Assembly: GCA_019636345.1 (NCBI GenBank)
Contig: JAHBXQ010000002.1
Span: 682,001-746,000, forward strand
Direction of reading: 5' to 3'
Source of the DNA: Pirellulales bacterium
GTDB lineage: Bacteria; Planctomycetota; Planctomycetia; Pirellulales; Lacipirellulaceae
Length of the DNA: 64,000 nucleotides
The translations under genes were made by a program, and so were the position numbers. Under the pieces are notes generated by a model. It worked only from the letters and a program-made list of their open reading frames with translations, searched no databases and was not told where the DNA came from. The first letter of the stretch is position 1. Every line of letters starts with the position of its first letter. This document shows, one piece after another, positions 34,222 to 41,826 of this stretch.

Positions 34222-36462
34222 TCACCCCGCTGTGCGGGTACGGCGCACCGACGTTCTCAGGCGTCTAACGAATCCGACCCCGATCAGTACGCTCGTTGTG
34301 CCGATTGGTTCGGGGACCGACGCGGCGGCGGCGACGCTGGCGCCCGCGGCGGCTCGTTGCCAAGCGAGAAAGTCGCCGCCGTCGACGAGCCCGTCGCCGT
34401 TGGCGTCCCCAGCAGATTGACCGGAGCCGCTGCCGAATCCGATCTGCCAGACAGCCAGGTCGGCGCCATCGACGAGACGGTCGCCGTTGAAGTCGGCGGG
34501 ATCGATCGGCACGACGGTCAGCGCCAAGACTTGCGGACTGGAGTCGATCTGCCACGCCAACCCGGATGTCAGGGCCGGGAGCGTGGATAGGGTGAACGCC
34601 CCTGTGCGACTCCCTGCGACGGTCAGCAGCGAAAAGGCGTCGCCGGCGACCGGCTGATAGTCGCTTGCCAGCGAGACGCTCAATGCGCCGGCGAGCGTCG
34701 CGTTGCCGCCGATCTCGATCTGGGGGCCGGCAGGGCCTTCCGCGGGACTCGCCAGCACCAAGTTGGTCGTCGCCCCCGCGCCGAACGACAGATCGTGCAA
34801 GAGCAGCGCCCTCGACCCGGGCATCACCTGAAATACGCCGTTGTTGACCACCGGGTCGTGAAAGGTCGCCGACGATTCGCCTCCCACGACGATCGTCCCC
34901 CCCGCGGCGTTGGCGACGGAAGCGTGGATGTCGACGGTTCCGCCCGTCGCGGCAAGCCGCCCGCCCGAGGAGATCGTCAGCGGATTCGTCGCTCCGTCGA
35001 GGCGCGTGACGCGGAGCGCGGCGTTCTGCAGCGCGATGCGACCGGAGTTGGCGATTGCGTCCGCGACTTCCAGCGTGCCGCCCCGCAGGTCGACGAACCC
35101 CTTGTTGTCCAGATCGTCGACGAGCTGCAGCAGGTCGCCGGTCGAGGTGCGGATTTCCGCGTTGGGCGTGTTGACGACGGGGCAGTCGACGACGCCGCTC
35201 CCCTGCAGGATGCCCGAGTTGGTCAGCGCCGCCGCAGCCCCGCTCGCCACGAGCCGCCCCCCGGCGAGCGTCAGCCGGCCTTGCGTGCCGATGGTGATTG
35301 CGCCGGCCGTGTTGTCACCCACGGCGACGGTTCCTCCTGCCGAGACGGCGGCGGCGGCGAGTCCTAACTTGCCGACTTCGAACGATCCGGCGACTTCCCA
35401 CACGGAATTGAGCCCGTCGACGAGAAGGTCGCCGGTCGCGGTGGCCAGATCGCCCAGCACGACGCCGGCGCTTTCGATCCGTCCGCCGCCGAGGACGCGG
35501 ACGACGCCACGTCCGGCGCGACCTGCCGTGACTCCTCCGGAGCCGCGCCACAAGGATCCCGCGCCGCTGACCTCGAGGTACGCCTCGCCGGCGGCGCCGT
35601 TGGCGAGCATGACGGTCGAGGTCGCGGCGTTCGTAACGCGGCCGCCGTTCTGAACGAGCAGTTCGCCCACGCCCGCATCGGCGACGGTCAGCCCAGCCGA
35701 GTTCGTCCACGCCGAGCCAAATCCCGACACGACGACGGATCCCAGCGACGAAGCGGCGTTGGCGATGCTGCCGGACGCGCTCTCGATGCGAGCCCCGCCG
35801 CTGATCTCGACGCGACCGCGCCCCTCGGCTCCGACTGTGATCGCCCCGGATTGGCGCCACAAGGTTTGATTGCCGCTGATCGAAGCGAATCCGACGCCGG
35901 TCGTGGCGTTGCCCAGCACCGCGGCAGTCCCTGTGGCGACGGCGCCGTTGGCGAGCAACAGGGTCCCGGACCCCGCGGCGCCGACGGTGGTCGTCGCGGC
36001 GCTCGTCCAGAGCGAGCCGAACCCGTCGACGGAGAGTTGCCCCGACCCGCTGGCGTTGGTCCCCAAAGTCGGCGCACCGTTTTCGAGCCGGCCGCCGGCG
36101 ACGACGTTGATGCGTCCCGTCCCGGAGCTGCCGACCGCCAGGGTGGCGCTAAGACCCCACCGCGAAGCGAATCCCGTGATCGTCATTTGACCGACGCCGC
36201 CGGTCTGACTGCCGACCGTGGCGGACGTGCCGGTGAGCGCCGTGCCGTTGTCGATCGTCGCCAAGCCGGCGGTCGAGTTGCCGACGACGACTAGCGCCAC
36301 GCTCCCGCCGTTCGCCGGCAACGCCGGAGTGACGTCTCCCTGCGTCGTCACGGCGGCGAGTGCGGGGACGCCGGAGGGAGCGGCCGCAAGGGCGGCAAGC
36401 ACGAATCCAGCGAGGGGGAGACGTAAATCGAAGCGGGAGCAGATCCATCGAACAGCCGACAT
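34222..36462 (-). CDS. Exported beta-helical repeat protein (autotransporter-passenger-like) with dockerin and PEP-CTERM tail
   Basis: A 746-residue protein. AAGGA lies about eight bases before the ATG. A signal peptide occupies residues ~1-37. Residues ~40-400 are imperfect repeats of ~45 residues of the type VDGFGSLWTSAATTTVGAAG, then GTLLLANGA, matching the T5SS/PEP-CTERM-associated repeat that forms parallel beta-helices. Residues ~400-620 resemble the end of such a helix. Two dockerin-like loops follow (DFNGDRLVDGADLAVW, GDANGDGLVDGGDFLAW). The C-terminus has SVPEPIGTT, a hydrophobic segment and arginines, although its hydrophobic stretch is weak. There is no autotransporter beta-barrel. 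It is probably a surface or matrix protein. Confidence 0.82.
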   Translation of the reverse strand: MSAVRWICSRFDLRLPLAGFVLAALAAAPSGVPALAAVTTQGDVTPALPANGGSVALVVVGNSTAGLATIDNGTALTGTSATVGSQTGGVGQMTITGFASRWGLSATLAVGSSGTGRINVVAGGRLENGAPTLGTNASGSGQLSVDGFGSLWTSAATTTVGAAGSGTLLLANGAVATGTAAVLGNATTGVGFASISGNQTLWRQSGAITVGAEGRGRVEISGGARIESASGSIANAASSLGSVVVSGFGSAWTNSAGLTVADAGVGELLVQNGGRVTNAATSTVMLANGAAGEAYLEVSGAGSLWRGSGGVTAGRAGRGVVRVLGGGRIESAGVVLGDLATATGDLLVDGLNSVWEVAGSFEVGKLGLAAAAVSAGGTVAVGDNTAGAITIGTQGRLTLAGGRLVASGAAAALTNSGILQGSGVVDCPVVNTPNAEIRTSTGDLLQLVDDLDNKGFVDLRGGTLEVADAIANSGRIALQNAALRVTRLDGATNPLTISSGGRLAATGGTVDIHASVANAAGGTIVVGGESSATFHDPVVNNGVFQVMPGSRALLLHDLSFGAGATTNLVLASPAEGPAGPQIEIGGNATLAGALSVSLASDYQPVAGDAFSLLTVAGSRTGAFTLSTLPALTSGLAWQIDSSPQVLALTVVPIDPADFNGDRLVDGADLAVWQIGFGSGSGQSAGDANGDGLVDGGDFLAWQRAAAGASVAAAASVPEPIGTTSVLIGVGFVRRLRTSVRRTRTAG

Positions 36463-38480: not shown

Positions 38481-38674
38481 GGTGCAGAATCCAGAGAAGG
38501 AGTTACGAACCGGACCCACTCAACGGCAGCTCCATGCTGCAGTCAGGGTATTTTAACGGCTCCGGCGCCCGCCCGACAGGGTCGCCGGAGCCCCCCTCAG
38601 CGGCTGCCGTGAGCGTGGTAAGATGTCGAACGTTTCCTCGCGCTTCTCCGTCGTCCCCCTTCCGTCGCCTGCCT

Positions 38675-39562
38675 GTGATCGATTTGTTGACTGCCGTTTG
38701 GCTGGGGTTCTTGGGGGCTTGCATCGGCAGCTTTCTCAACGTGGTCGCGTATCGGCTGCCGCTGGGAATGTCGGTCGTGTGGCGGCCGTCGCACTGTCCC
38801 CGGTGCGATCACCCGATTCGCCCCTACGACAACGTGCCGATCCTCGGGTGGTTGTGGCTGCGAGGGAAGTGCCGCGACTGCGGGGCCCCGATCTCGCCCC
38901 GCTACGCGATCGTCGAGACTGTGCTGGGGGCGGTCGCGTTCTTGCTGGCGTACGTCGAGCTGTTCAGCGGCGGCGCCAATCTGCCCGGGGGGCCGCTAGC
39001 CGACCAGTCCGGAGCGCTCCGCACAGTTTGGATTCCCCACGGGCCGCTGCTGGCGACCTACGGGCTCCATCTGCTGTTGATGGCGGCGCTGACGACGATC
39101 GTATTGTTCGACCTCGATCAGCAGAGCATCCCGAAGCGATTCGGCGTCGTCGTGCTGGCGGCGATGCTGCTCGTGGTGCTCTACGGGAACGTCTATCATC
39201 CCGCTCCTGGGGTTGAGTCCACGGGGCCTCGCCAGGCTCAACACGCGTCCCTCGGGATTCTCGTTCTTGTCGCCTCCGCGGCCATTCACTTTGCCGCCGC
39301 GAAGAATCGAAACGTGGCGCCGAACATCCTCATGCTGCAGCACCGCAGCAAGGCATTTCTGGCCGGAGCGTTTGTGTTGTTGTCGCTTGGCTTGACCGCA
39401 ACGCCGACTTTCCTGGCGCTCTGGGGGCTCGTGAGTTGCGTGGTCCGAGCATGCGGCGGCCGCTCGCGCTCGCTCCTGCTCTCGACGACCGCGGCTGCGT
39501 GGTGCGTGGCATTGGTGCACATCGTCTTCTGGCGCCAACTCGCCGAGTTGTCGCCGTGGTAG
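38675..39562 (+). CDS. Prepilin-peptidase-like membrane protein lacking the GxGD motif
   Basis: A 295-residue protein with the N-terminal prepilin peptidase domain: LGACIGSFLNVVAYRLPLG, then two CxxC pairs (CPRC, CRDC) around IRPYDNVPILGWLWLRGK, and ISPRYAIVE. About six hydrophobic helices follow. The first catalytic Asp context is present in IVLFDLDQQSIPKRF. The second motif of type IV prepilin peptidases, GxGD, cannot be found; the corresponding region reads LVSCVVRACGGRSR. The enzyme may be inactive or atypical. The GTG at 38675 is used because it starts right at the first helix. No pilin genes are adjacent. Confidence 0.75.
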   Translation: MIDLLTAVWLGFLGACIGSFLNVVAYRLPLGMSVVWRPSHCPRCDHPIRPYDNVPILGWLWLRGKCRDCGAPISPRYAIVETVLGAVAFLLAYVELFSGGANLPGGPLADQSGALRTVWIPHGPLLATYGLHLLLMAALTTIVLFDLDQQSIPKRFGVVVLAAMLLVVLYGNVYHPAPGVESTGPRQAQHASLGILVLVASAAIHFAAAKNRNVAPNILMLQHRSKAFLAGAFVLLSLGLTATPTFLALWGLVSCVVRACGGRSRSLLLSTTAAAWCVALVHIVFWRQLAELSPW

Positions 39563-39711
39563 CGCCGCGCGGGGAATTGCGCGGGAGGCGTCGTGTGCTC
39601 GCTCTGCAAAACGCGGCGTCTCCATCTGGATCGACCCTATTGCATGATGCGAAGTTTTGGGTCGGCGGTCTTCCGGCGCCCCGTCGTCCCTCAAAGGACC
39701 AGAGGAAACCT

Positions 39712-40047
39712 ATGACTGGCCGTCTGGACAAGCGTTTGCTCATCGGTCTAGCCGTTTTTGGGGTCGCGTATGCCGTCACGGGATTGCACTGGCTATCCGC
39801 CGGCACCATCGTGATTCGAAAAGCACCGAGCGACGGGCCGGTCGTCGGAGCCATCGGGGCCAACAGCGTTCTCTATTATCCGCTGTGCGGAATATGGATT
39901 GGATTGGGCGTGTCGATGGTCGCGCTCTCCATACTCTCCTTCTTCAGCTCCAGAGCTTTGTATCTCAAGCTGTCATCGTTCTCCTTTCTGGCAATCCTGC
40001 TGCTGGGCTTGGGGACTTTGGCGGCGGCAATCAGGGCCGGCCCGTAA
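39712..40047 (+). CDS. Small membrane protein of unknown function
   Basis: A 111-residue protein with AGAGGAAA just before the ATG. About three hydrophobic segments are seen (residues ~9-28, 45-75 and 85-108, the middle perhaps longer than one helix), with few charges between. There are no recognisable motifs. It follows the prepilin-peptidase-like gene by 149 bases in the same direction, but a functional link is only a guess. Confidence 0.6.
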   Translation: MTGRLDKRLLIGLAVFGVAYAVTGLHWLSAGTIVIRKAPSDGPVVGAIGANSVLYYPLCGIWIGLGVSMVALSILSFFSSRALYLKLSSFSFLAILLLGLGTLAAAIRAGP

Positions 40048-40215: not shown

Positions 40216-41754
40216 TCAGCTCCAGAACCGCCGGTCGAGCATGCGGTAGTTCACCGCTTCGGCGACGTGCTCTTGCCGGAGGTCGGCGGCGCCTTCGACG
40301 TCGGCGATGGTGCGGGCGACGCGGAGGATCTTGTCGTGAGCGCGGGCCGAGAGGCCCATTTCGTTGACGCTCGCCTCGAGCATGTCGCGACTCGCCGAGT
40401 CGAGCTTGCAGACCTCGCGCACCTGCCGGCTGGTCATCTGTCCGTTGGTCCGCGTCCCGCTGCCGGCGAACCGCTGCGACTGCACCGCCCGCGCCGCGGC
40501 GACCTGCTCGCCCATCGTGCGACTGTCGGTCCCCGGGGGGCCGTGGGCCAATTCCTTGAACGGCACGGCCGCGACCTCGATGTGAATGTCGATCCGATCC
40601 AAGAGCGGGCCGCTGATCTTGTTGACGTACCGTTCGATCTGCGGCACGCTGCAATGGCACTCGCGGCGCGGATCGTTGCGAAACCCGCAGGGACACGGGT
40701 TGAGCGAGGCGATCAGCATGAAGTCGGCGGGGAACTCGCTCGCCCGCAGCGCTCGGCTGATCGACACCGTGCCGTCTTCGAGGGGTTGGCGGAGCACTTC
40801 GAGGGTTTGCCGGTTGAACTCGGGGAGTTCGTCGAGAAACAGCACGCCGTTATGGGCCATGCTGATTTCGCCGGGGGTCGGCGTCGAGCCGCCCCCCACG
40901 AGCCCCGCGTTGCTGATCGTGTGGTGAGGCGCGCGAAAGGGGCGGCGGACCATCAGCGGACGATCGGCCGCCAGCTTGCCCAGCACGCTGTATACGCGGC
41001 TCGTCTCGATCGACTCCTCGGCCGTGAGTTGCGGCAAGATCGTCGGCATGCGTTTGGCGAGCATCGTCTTGCCGGTCCCCGGGCTGCCGACCATGAGCAG
41101 ATTGTGGGCCCCGGCCGCGGCGAGCATGACGGCCCGCTTGGCCATCTCCTGCCCGCGGACGTCGGCGAAGTCGTCGTCGTAGCGGGCGTGCTCCTCGAAG
41201 AACTGGCTCACGCGCGACGGGGTCGGTTCGATCGCCAGATCGTCGGCCAGAAACGCGACCGCCTCGGTCAGACTGCTCACGGAAATCGCTTCGATCCCCT
41301 CGACGACCGCCGCCTCGCCGGCGTTCTGGGCGGGCAGGATCAACCCGCGCAGACCGCGCTGCTTGGCCGCGGCCATCGCCATCGACAGGGCGCCCTTCAC
41401 CGGACGCATCGCGCCGTCGAGGGCCAGTTCGCCGACGACCGCATAGCGTTCCAACTTGTCCGAGGCGAACTGACCGCTCGCCGCCAGCAGCCCCAGCGCC
41501 ACCGGCAGATCGAACGACGACGCCTGCTTGGGCAGCTCGGCCGGGGCCAGGTTGATCACGCACCGATTGTCCGGCAGCACGAACCCGCTGTTCGCCAGGG
41601 CCCGCTCGATCCGGTGGACGCTCTCGCGCACCGCTTGGTCGGGAAGCCCCACCAGCACCGTCTTCGGGATCGCCGCATACGAGACGTCGACCTCGGCGAC
41701 CACCGCAACGGCGTCAATCCCCACGAGCGAAAACGTATGCAGCTTGGCCAGCAT
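40216..41754 (-). CDS. comM: YifB/ComM family Mg-chelatase-like AAA+ ATPase
   Basis: A 512-residue ATPase of normal family length. The N-terminal lon-protease-like fold (residues ~1-165) opens LAKLHTFSLVGIDAVAVVAE and has INLAPAELPKQASSFDLP. The AAA+ core has Walker A GSPGTGKT, RPFRAPHHTISNAGLVGG, Walker B VLFLDELPEF, and the cysteine-bearing insert NPCPCGFRNDPRRECHCS. The C-terminal domain ends with the usual RVARTIADVEG segment. ComM is a hexameric helicase that promotes branch migration during natural transformation; whether this organism is competent is unknown. Start chosen at MLAKLHTFS. Confidence 0.93.
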   Translation of the reverse strand: MLAKLHTFSLVGIDAVAVVAEVDVSYAAIPKTVLVGLPDQAVRESVHRIERALANSGFVLPDNRCVINLAPAELPKQASSFDLPVALGLLAASGQFASDKLERYAVVGELALDGAMRPVKGALSMAMAAAKQRGLRGLILPAQNAGEAAVVEGIEAISVSSLTEAVAFLADDLAIEPTPSRVSQFFEEHARYDDDFADVRGQEMAKRAVMLAAAGAHNLLMVGSPGTGKTMLAKRMPTILPQLTAEESIETSRVYSVLGKLAADRPLMVRRPFRAPHHTISNAGLVGGGSTPTPGEISMAHNGVLFLDELPEFNRQTLEVLRQPLEDGTVSISRALRASEFPADFMLIASLNPCPCGFRNDPRRECHCSVPQIERYVNKISGPLLDRIDIHIEVAAVPFKELAHGPPGTDSRTMGEQVAAARAVQSQRFAGSGTRTNGQMTSRQVREVCKLDSASRDMLEASVNEMGLSARAHDKILRVARTIADVEGAADLRQEHVAEAVNYRMLDRRFWS

Positions 41755-41826
41755 GGGGGCCAGTGTAACACGCCGGCCGGCCGAAATCACTCTTTCGCCG
41801 CAGTTGCCTGCTTAGGGCGAAAACCG

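Follow-up and report, generated by a model that had tools for sequence, protein, structure and literature searches.

The window analysed here, a whole stretch of 64,000 nucleotides from a member of the Lacipirellulaceae, carries at 38675..39562 on the plus strand a gene for a membrane protein of 295 amino acids, with a GTG start at 38675 and a stop at 39562. We refer to it as the M-type gene; its function as a dedicated prepilin N-methyltransferase is inferred. An alternative in-frame ATG lies at 38534, but the GTG is the likelier start because full-length relatives mostly align from residue 1-2. The methylase domain A24_N_bact (PF06750) spans residues 13-93 (38711..38953, plus strand; E 6.3e-34). 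Both CxxC pairs are intact, C41-C44 at 38795..38806 and C66-C69, the latter lying with the preceding G64-K65 at 38864..38881, so that the protein passes two tests for a bifunctional prepilin peptidase, a methylase domain with two CxxC pairs and a Gly-basic pair ahead of the third cysteine. The first catalytic Asp is retained as D146 in F-DLD-QQSIP, where D146-L-D148 (39110..39118) is the remnant of the first Asp motif. The second catalytic Asp motif, GxGD, does not occur after F-DLD-QQSIP, and PF01478 is absent among the five Pfam families listed for the protein at E<=1. Residues 96-295 (38960..39559) thus constitute a decayed peptidase (A24) half without GxGD. The earlier note had claimed intact CxxC pairs, a methylase-like N-terminal domain and a first Asp without GxGD, and all of this held in the Pfam and motif analyses.

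Because both the GxGD and a PF01478 match are absent, the window protein was not filed as a prepilin peptidase. Nor does it contain a TadV/CpaA-type A24 domain with both Asp, as judged by Pfam and by a six-frame PF01478 search. In a genome-wide profile search (E<=0.001), PF06750 matched a single ORF, that of the window gene, and the six-frame PF01478 search of the whole genome (E<=0.001) returned nothing near it. With no match around the gene in any of the six frames, a GxGD concealed by a frameshift is disfavoured. A frameshift, which the earlier note had named as a route to refutation, or an assembly error was rejected as the source of the loss on this ground and because the loss is common to the relatives.

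Compared with 29 relatives, the window protein has a mean identity of 67% over residues 1-95, 29% over residues 96-200 and 20% over residues 201-295 (the last without two short rows). The AlphaFold2 model is confident (pLDDT 88.2, pTM 0.87), so folding into a helical bundle is still predicted for the decayed peptidase half. A Foldseek search against the PDB (E<=0.001) gave no match for this model; the rows returned were unrelated helical proteins, with no prepilin peptidase among those shown. Since the P-type protein described below, used as a positive control, was not matched either, the fold search says nothing either way. No sequence relatives of the M-type or the P-type protein were found in the PDB.

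Downstream on the same strand lies a hydrophobic-looking 111-residue ORF (39712-40047), for which the earlier note had proposed a membrane protein of no known family. The ORF was confirmed. Its best Pfam matches fall well short of the curated thresholds (YbjM, E 0.021), PHROGs gave none, and no homologue was found in the other 42 family genomes, leaving a link between this ORFan and the M-type gene unsupported. Its GC content is 0.589 against 0.64-0.68 for nearby genes, and its codon score of +0.026, the best of its six frames, is well below the +0.159 of the M-type gene; it is possibly a young gene, or a chance reading frame. No RNA structure was detected between the two (z -0.49). Upstream and divergent is a 3-keto-disaccharide hydrolase gene (PF06439, 37728-38519, minus strand), which recurs beside the M-type gene in 13 of 41 further family genomes searched, without implying that the two are functionally linked. 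A link to the ComM-like gene at 40216-41790 was considered and dropped, as none of the 49 loci searched contained a match to it, many of these loci extending just 1.5 kb in either direction. Adjoining the ComM-like gene is a putative beta-barrel porin gene, BBP7 (PF07585, 41827-43122, minus strand). Further upstream, at 34222-36462 on the minus strand, a 746-residue repeat-rich, secreted-looking protein is encoded; its tail looks dockerin-like and PEP-CTERM-like by eye, and it has no Pfam match at 0.001.

Conservation in Lacipirellulaceae and a partner protein in the same genome

The loss of GxGD is shared across the family, which includes Adhaeretor mobilis and Bythopirellula polymerisocia (NCBI: Pirellulales, Lacipirellulaceae). 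The window protein was matched in 42 of 43 family genomes, its own included, the single miss being a genome that is 66% complete (G031). A relative lacking GxGD was typed in 42/43 genomes, again counting its own, and strong PF06750 matches (E<=1.9e-25) fall in 42/43 in ORFs without a listed PF01478 match. The length of the M-type protein varies. It is a bare methylase domain of 92-122 residues in 15 genomes of family f1 (genera g3, g4, g6, g12, g13 and g14), measures 176-184 residues in six g5 genomes, and has 97-103 residues in one genome each of families f3 and f101.

The earlier note had suggested looking for a second, full-length prepilin peptidase in the genome. PF01478 matches two ORFs genome-wide (E<=0.001), a 191-residue CpaA-like ORF (L006:2433-3008) and a 453-residue A24 protein, which we call the P-type. 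The P-type gene is located outside the window, on a different contig from the M-type gene (G000:C1 384604-385965, equal to L005:1605-2966, minus strand in L005), in the vicinity of ORFs for a shikimate kinase and an OmpA-domain protein. The protein carries IDIDEKTIPD and GFGDVTLM, and therefore both Asp, and has none of the four cysteines and no Gly-basic pair. Judged by these motifs, the window paralogue kept the methylase residues and lost the peptidase, and the 453-residue paralogue did the reverse. This reciprocal partner had not been foreseen by the earlier note. Its AlphaFold2 model is likewise confident (pLDDT 91.9, pTM 0.92).

An A24 ORF of 400-620 residues is present in 40/43 family genomes; the exceptions are G035, G037 (68% complete) and G038 (82% complete). 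In the 21 family genomes from which this ORF was fetched, the present one included, it lacks the cysteines and keeps both Asp in every case (21/21).

Distribution across the order, the class and the phylum

PF06750 was matched in 112 of 118 genomes of the order and in 279 of 294 genomes of the phylum. The ORFs fetched were hand-picked from these surveys and are a sample rather than a full census. We aligned 182 ORFs, comprising 96 M-type (four cysteines, no GxGD), 36 bifunctional and 50 P-type. Eight loci of twice-fetched genomes (L117-L122, L127, L133) and one ORF at a contig end (L238) were left out beforehand; two ORFs, L132 and L196, read oddly in start or frame, and the conclusions do not rest on them. 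Another 20 ORFs of the order, 17 from family f92 and 3 from f2, were typed by motif without alignment as 14 M-type and 6 P-type. The typed set thus amounts to 110 M-type, 56 P-type and 36 bifunctional ORFs. The M-type and P-type ORFs come from the order and from one further family of the class, f4, the only family of the class outside the order that the sample covered.

M-type and P-type occur together in 49 genomes. Where both ORFs were fetched (55 genomes), 49 of the partners are P-type, 422-619 residues long, with both Asp and without the cysteines and the Gly-basic pair; the other six are bifunctional. An M-type ORF sits beside a bifunctional enzyme in seven genomes, six of f4 and G087, the last of which also has a P-type and is counted among the 49. 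In 52 genomes only the M-type was typed, the partner being unfetched; the second PF06750 ORF of G281 and, in several f4 genomes, additional A24 ORFs are likewise outside the typed set. Seven genomes were typed as P-type alone: G347, G387 and G360, in which a strong PF06750 ORF remained unfetched, and four without a PF06750 match. In these four, G367, G397, G415 and G424, whose completeness is 92-94%, a P-type ORF is present without a visible methylase; they represent either incomplete assemblies or real losses. They belong to the six order genomes without a PF06750 match; the other two, G358 and G385, have only A24 ORFs of 185-263 residues.

The bifunctional enzyme is the only form typed in 3 genomes of the class and was found in 26 genomes from the rest of the phylum. 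Outside the class, 26/27 fetched phylum ORFs have GxGD, and the remaining one is truncated by a contig end. GxGD is present in 72/80 named relatives. Seven of the eight lacking it are planctomycetes (two cut by contig ends, four from genomes already sampled), and the eighth is broken by a masked stretch. The single PF06750 match in G340, and likewise that in G123, belongs to a bifunctional enzyme. Extra PF06750 copies occur in some f4 genomes (L273, L274, L280). L274 and L280 keep the four cysteines and GxGD and lack the Gly before the third cysteine; they could perhaps be intermediate states. The P-type ORFs of f92 also vary, the methylase-type loop being degenerate in L290 and L291 and, by eye, much shortened in L292-L294; PF06750 finds nothing in the genomes of L290-L293.

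Residue contrast and history of the two types

The classes were defined by the cysteines and GxGD, and the informative contrast therefore lies in residues outside that definition. In the 182-row alignment, the Gly before the third cysteine is found in 96/96 M-type and 31/36 bifunctional ORFs and in 0/50 P-type ORFs. The residue that follows it is K, R or H in 96/96 M-type ORFs, the window protein included, and in 35/36 bifunctional ones. The first Asp is present in 50/50 P-type and 36/36 bifunctional ORFs and in only 23 of the 77 M-type ORFs having the column, which bears on the other refuting route of the earlier note, an alternative catalytic Asp; the column is missing altogether from 19/96 M-type ORFs. 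D148, two residues past the catalytic Asp (39116-39118), was observed in 72/77 M-type ORFs, compared with 23/77 for D146. By class definition the first CxxC, as part of the four cysteines, is found in 96/96 aligned M-type ORFs. GFGD is present in 50/50 P-type ORFs, and 49/50 have none of the four cysteines. The contrast between the types is partly one of construction, since the cysteines and GxGD define the classes and the M-type searches favour domains that bear cysteines. In size, 31/96 aligned M-type ORFs are shorter than 200 residues. Among 26 relatives of the P-type protein the pattern is the reverse of that in the M-type, mean identity being lower in the N part (45%) than in the regions of the two Asp motifs (59% and 62%).

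Trees were built from 82 and 48 of the 182 rows, chosen by the authors with ORFs under about 150 residues excluded, and the root was not inferred. In the 82-row tree (quick method), the 34 M-type rows all lie to one side of a branch whose SH-aLRT support is 99. The 48-row tree was computed by the careful method from the peptidase part only, excluding the N-domain columns. Here bifunctional enzymes separate the P-types of the order from the P-types of two f4 genera, and the bifunctional enzyme of G340, a genome with no second PF06750 match, is placed beside or within the P clade of the order. A single P-type clade was rejected (AU p 0.0013), indicating for the peptidase part that the P-type forms are not one clade. 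Barring a regain, the methylase site was lost from the peptidase copy on at least two occasions.

Interpretation and rival explanations

Prepilin peptidases were described in a 2023 review as two-domain enzymes, some of them without the methylase (PMC10191384). In P. aeruginosa PilD, removing the metal stops methylation and leaves cleavage unaffected; the four cysteines affect methylation, and a Gly and a basic residue by the third cysteine contribute (PMC3584216). Catalysis of methylation by the methylase domain itself is considered very likely and has not been formally demonstrated (PMC4471445), and a coupling analysis proposed an interaction between PF06750 and PF07963 (PMC6822775). The window protein resembles PilD/GspO (MEROPS A24A; PF06750 plus PF01478) in its PF06750 domain, the CxxC-x21-CxxC spacing (PMC3584216), the Gly-basic pair before the third cysteine and the first Asp remnant. 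It differs in lacking GxGD, in that the peptidase half is decayed or missing in M-type proteins, and in that a second protein carries the peptidase. TadV/CpaA and other A24 peptidases without a methylase domain likewise represent one activity standing alone (PMC10191384), but they keep the opposite half, a peptidase without a methylase, of which the window protein is the converse. The planctomycete P-type is a paralogue of the same ancestral layout that, unlike the window protein, keeps D.D....P and GFGD and has lost the four cysteines and the Gly-basic pair. The sections consulted of PMC10191384 and of the earlier review PMC4471445 do not mention a methylase without a peptidase, and no report of a methylase-only protein was found in the open-access literature searched. 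A possible split of PilD in Synechococcus was not borne out in the literature checked.

Candidate substrates are numerous. The N_methyl signal (PF07963) has 75 matches in this genome, and the 12 that were opened all read G|FTLVELLVVIAIIG (G|FTLVE). In Planctopirus limnophila, 68 DUF1559 proteins form the largest paralogue group, and two are essential (PMC10632474).

The gene content, the motif losses, their reciprocity and their conservation are shown by the data above. They amount to a textbook bifunctional enzyme having been divided reciprocally, and partly in parallel, in Pirellulales and part of its class, with the activities inferred. Since the window protein has the PilD methylation residues and lacks one of the two Asp, a dedicated methylase is the simplest reading, and we regard it as probable that the protein is a dedicated prepilin N-methyltransferase working beside a separate peptidase. 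Zinc binding, SAM use, methylation itself, the order of action and the substrates are all inferred. The suggestion of the earlier note that only one activity, for example N-methylation, may be kept is thus supported by comparison (methylase residues in 96/96, a peptidase half decayed or deleted, and a protein with the opposite loss in 49 genomes), the activity again being an inference. In this scenario, a bifunctional PilD-like enzyme would have undergone duplication in an ancestor that Pirellulales shares with one or more other families of its class (f4 at least). The M-type copy would have retained the methylase domain with its four cysteines and shed the peptidase with its GxGD. The P-type copy, in Pirellulales and separately in part of f4, would have done the opposite, giving up the four cysteines and the Gly-basic pair and retaining both catalytic Asp. 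Type IV pilin-like proteins would have their leader removed by the P-type, with the cut after Gly(-1), and the M-type would then move a methyl group from SAM onto the freed N-terminal Phe. Several observations count against this explanation. Most M-type proteins retain extra helices of unexplained use; in the six f4 genomes and G087 the M-type adds to rather than replaces the bifunctional enzyme, as the latter sits alongside (several of these genomes having further A24 ORFs); and the four order genomes with a P-type ORF but no PF06750 match show no methylase at all.

A bolder reading takes three propositions jointly, and we would not bet for or against it. The 92-122-residue relatives would be complete minimal membrane methyltransferases, two helices and one zinc ribbon sufficing for SAM-dependent N-terminal methylation; methylation would be separable from cleavage on dozens of pilin-like proteins, or possibly on just a subset; and, with a dedicated methylase in place, parallel losses would have stripped the peptidase copy of its cysteines.

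The strongest rival is a split enzyme, in which M-type and P-type bind each other in the membrane, the M-type helices serve as a docking surface and neither works well alone. It does not exclude methylation by the M-type and differs in requiring the complex. In its favour are the co-occurrence of the two types in 49 genomes, the confident prediction of the decayed half as a helical bundle, and the 45% mean identity still seen in the N part of the P-type despite its cysteine loss. Against it, the common docking half is missing where M-type ORFs fall below 200 residues (31/96), the loop that would hold the cysteines is much shortened in 3/5 P-types of f92 read by eye (L292-L294), and in this genome the M-type and P-type genes are not on the same contig. 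On balance, we lean against this rival.

The alternative raised by the earlier note, a non-catalytic membrane protein, was kept as a rival. Here a zinc-ribbon protein that has lost both activities would bind mature pilins as a chaperone or regulator. The PilD authors' suspicion that the zinc site is structural and/or serves substrate or SAM binding (PMC3584216) is consistent with it. Nevertheless, the Gly and the basic residue beside the third cysteine are kept in 96/96 M-type ORFs, and cysteine-less peptidase copies occur, where checked, in genomes with an M-type, with four visible exceptions; we consider this reading unlikely. That the protein is a peptidase using a different catalytic Asp, or that the assembly is at fault, is very improbable, for although D146 and D148 remain in the window protein and D148 is widespread (72/77), D146 is kept in only 23/77 M-type ORFs, its column is absent from 19/96, and no A24 match lies in any frame near the gene.

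The purpose of pilin methylation has been a puzzle for decades. If the window protein is a dedicated N-methyltransferase as proposed, these bacteria would provide a natural methylase-only protein, whose deletion should leave cleavage untouched, and the methylase of about 100 residues would be offered for biochemistry and structure.
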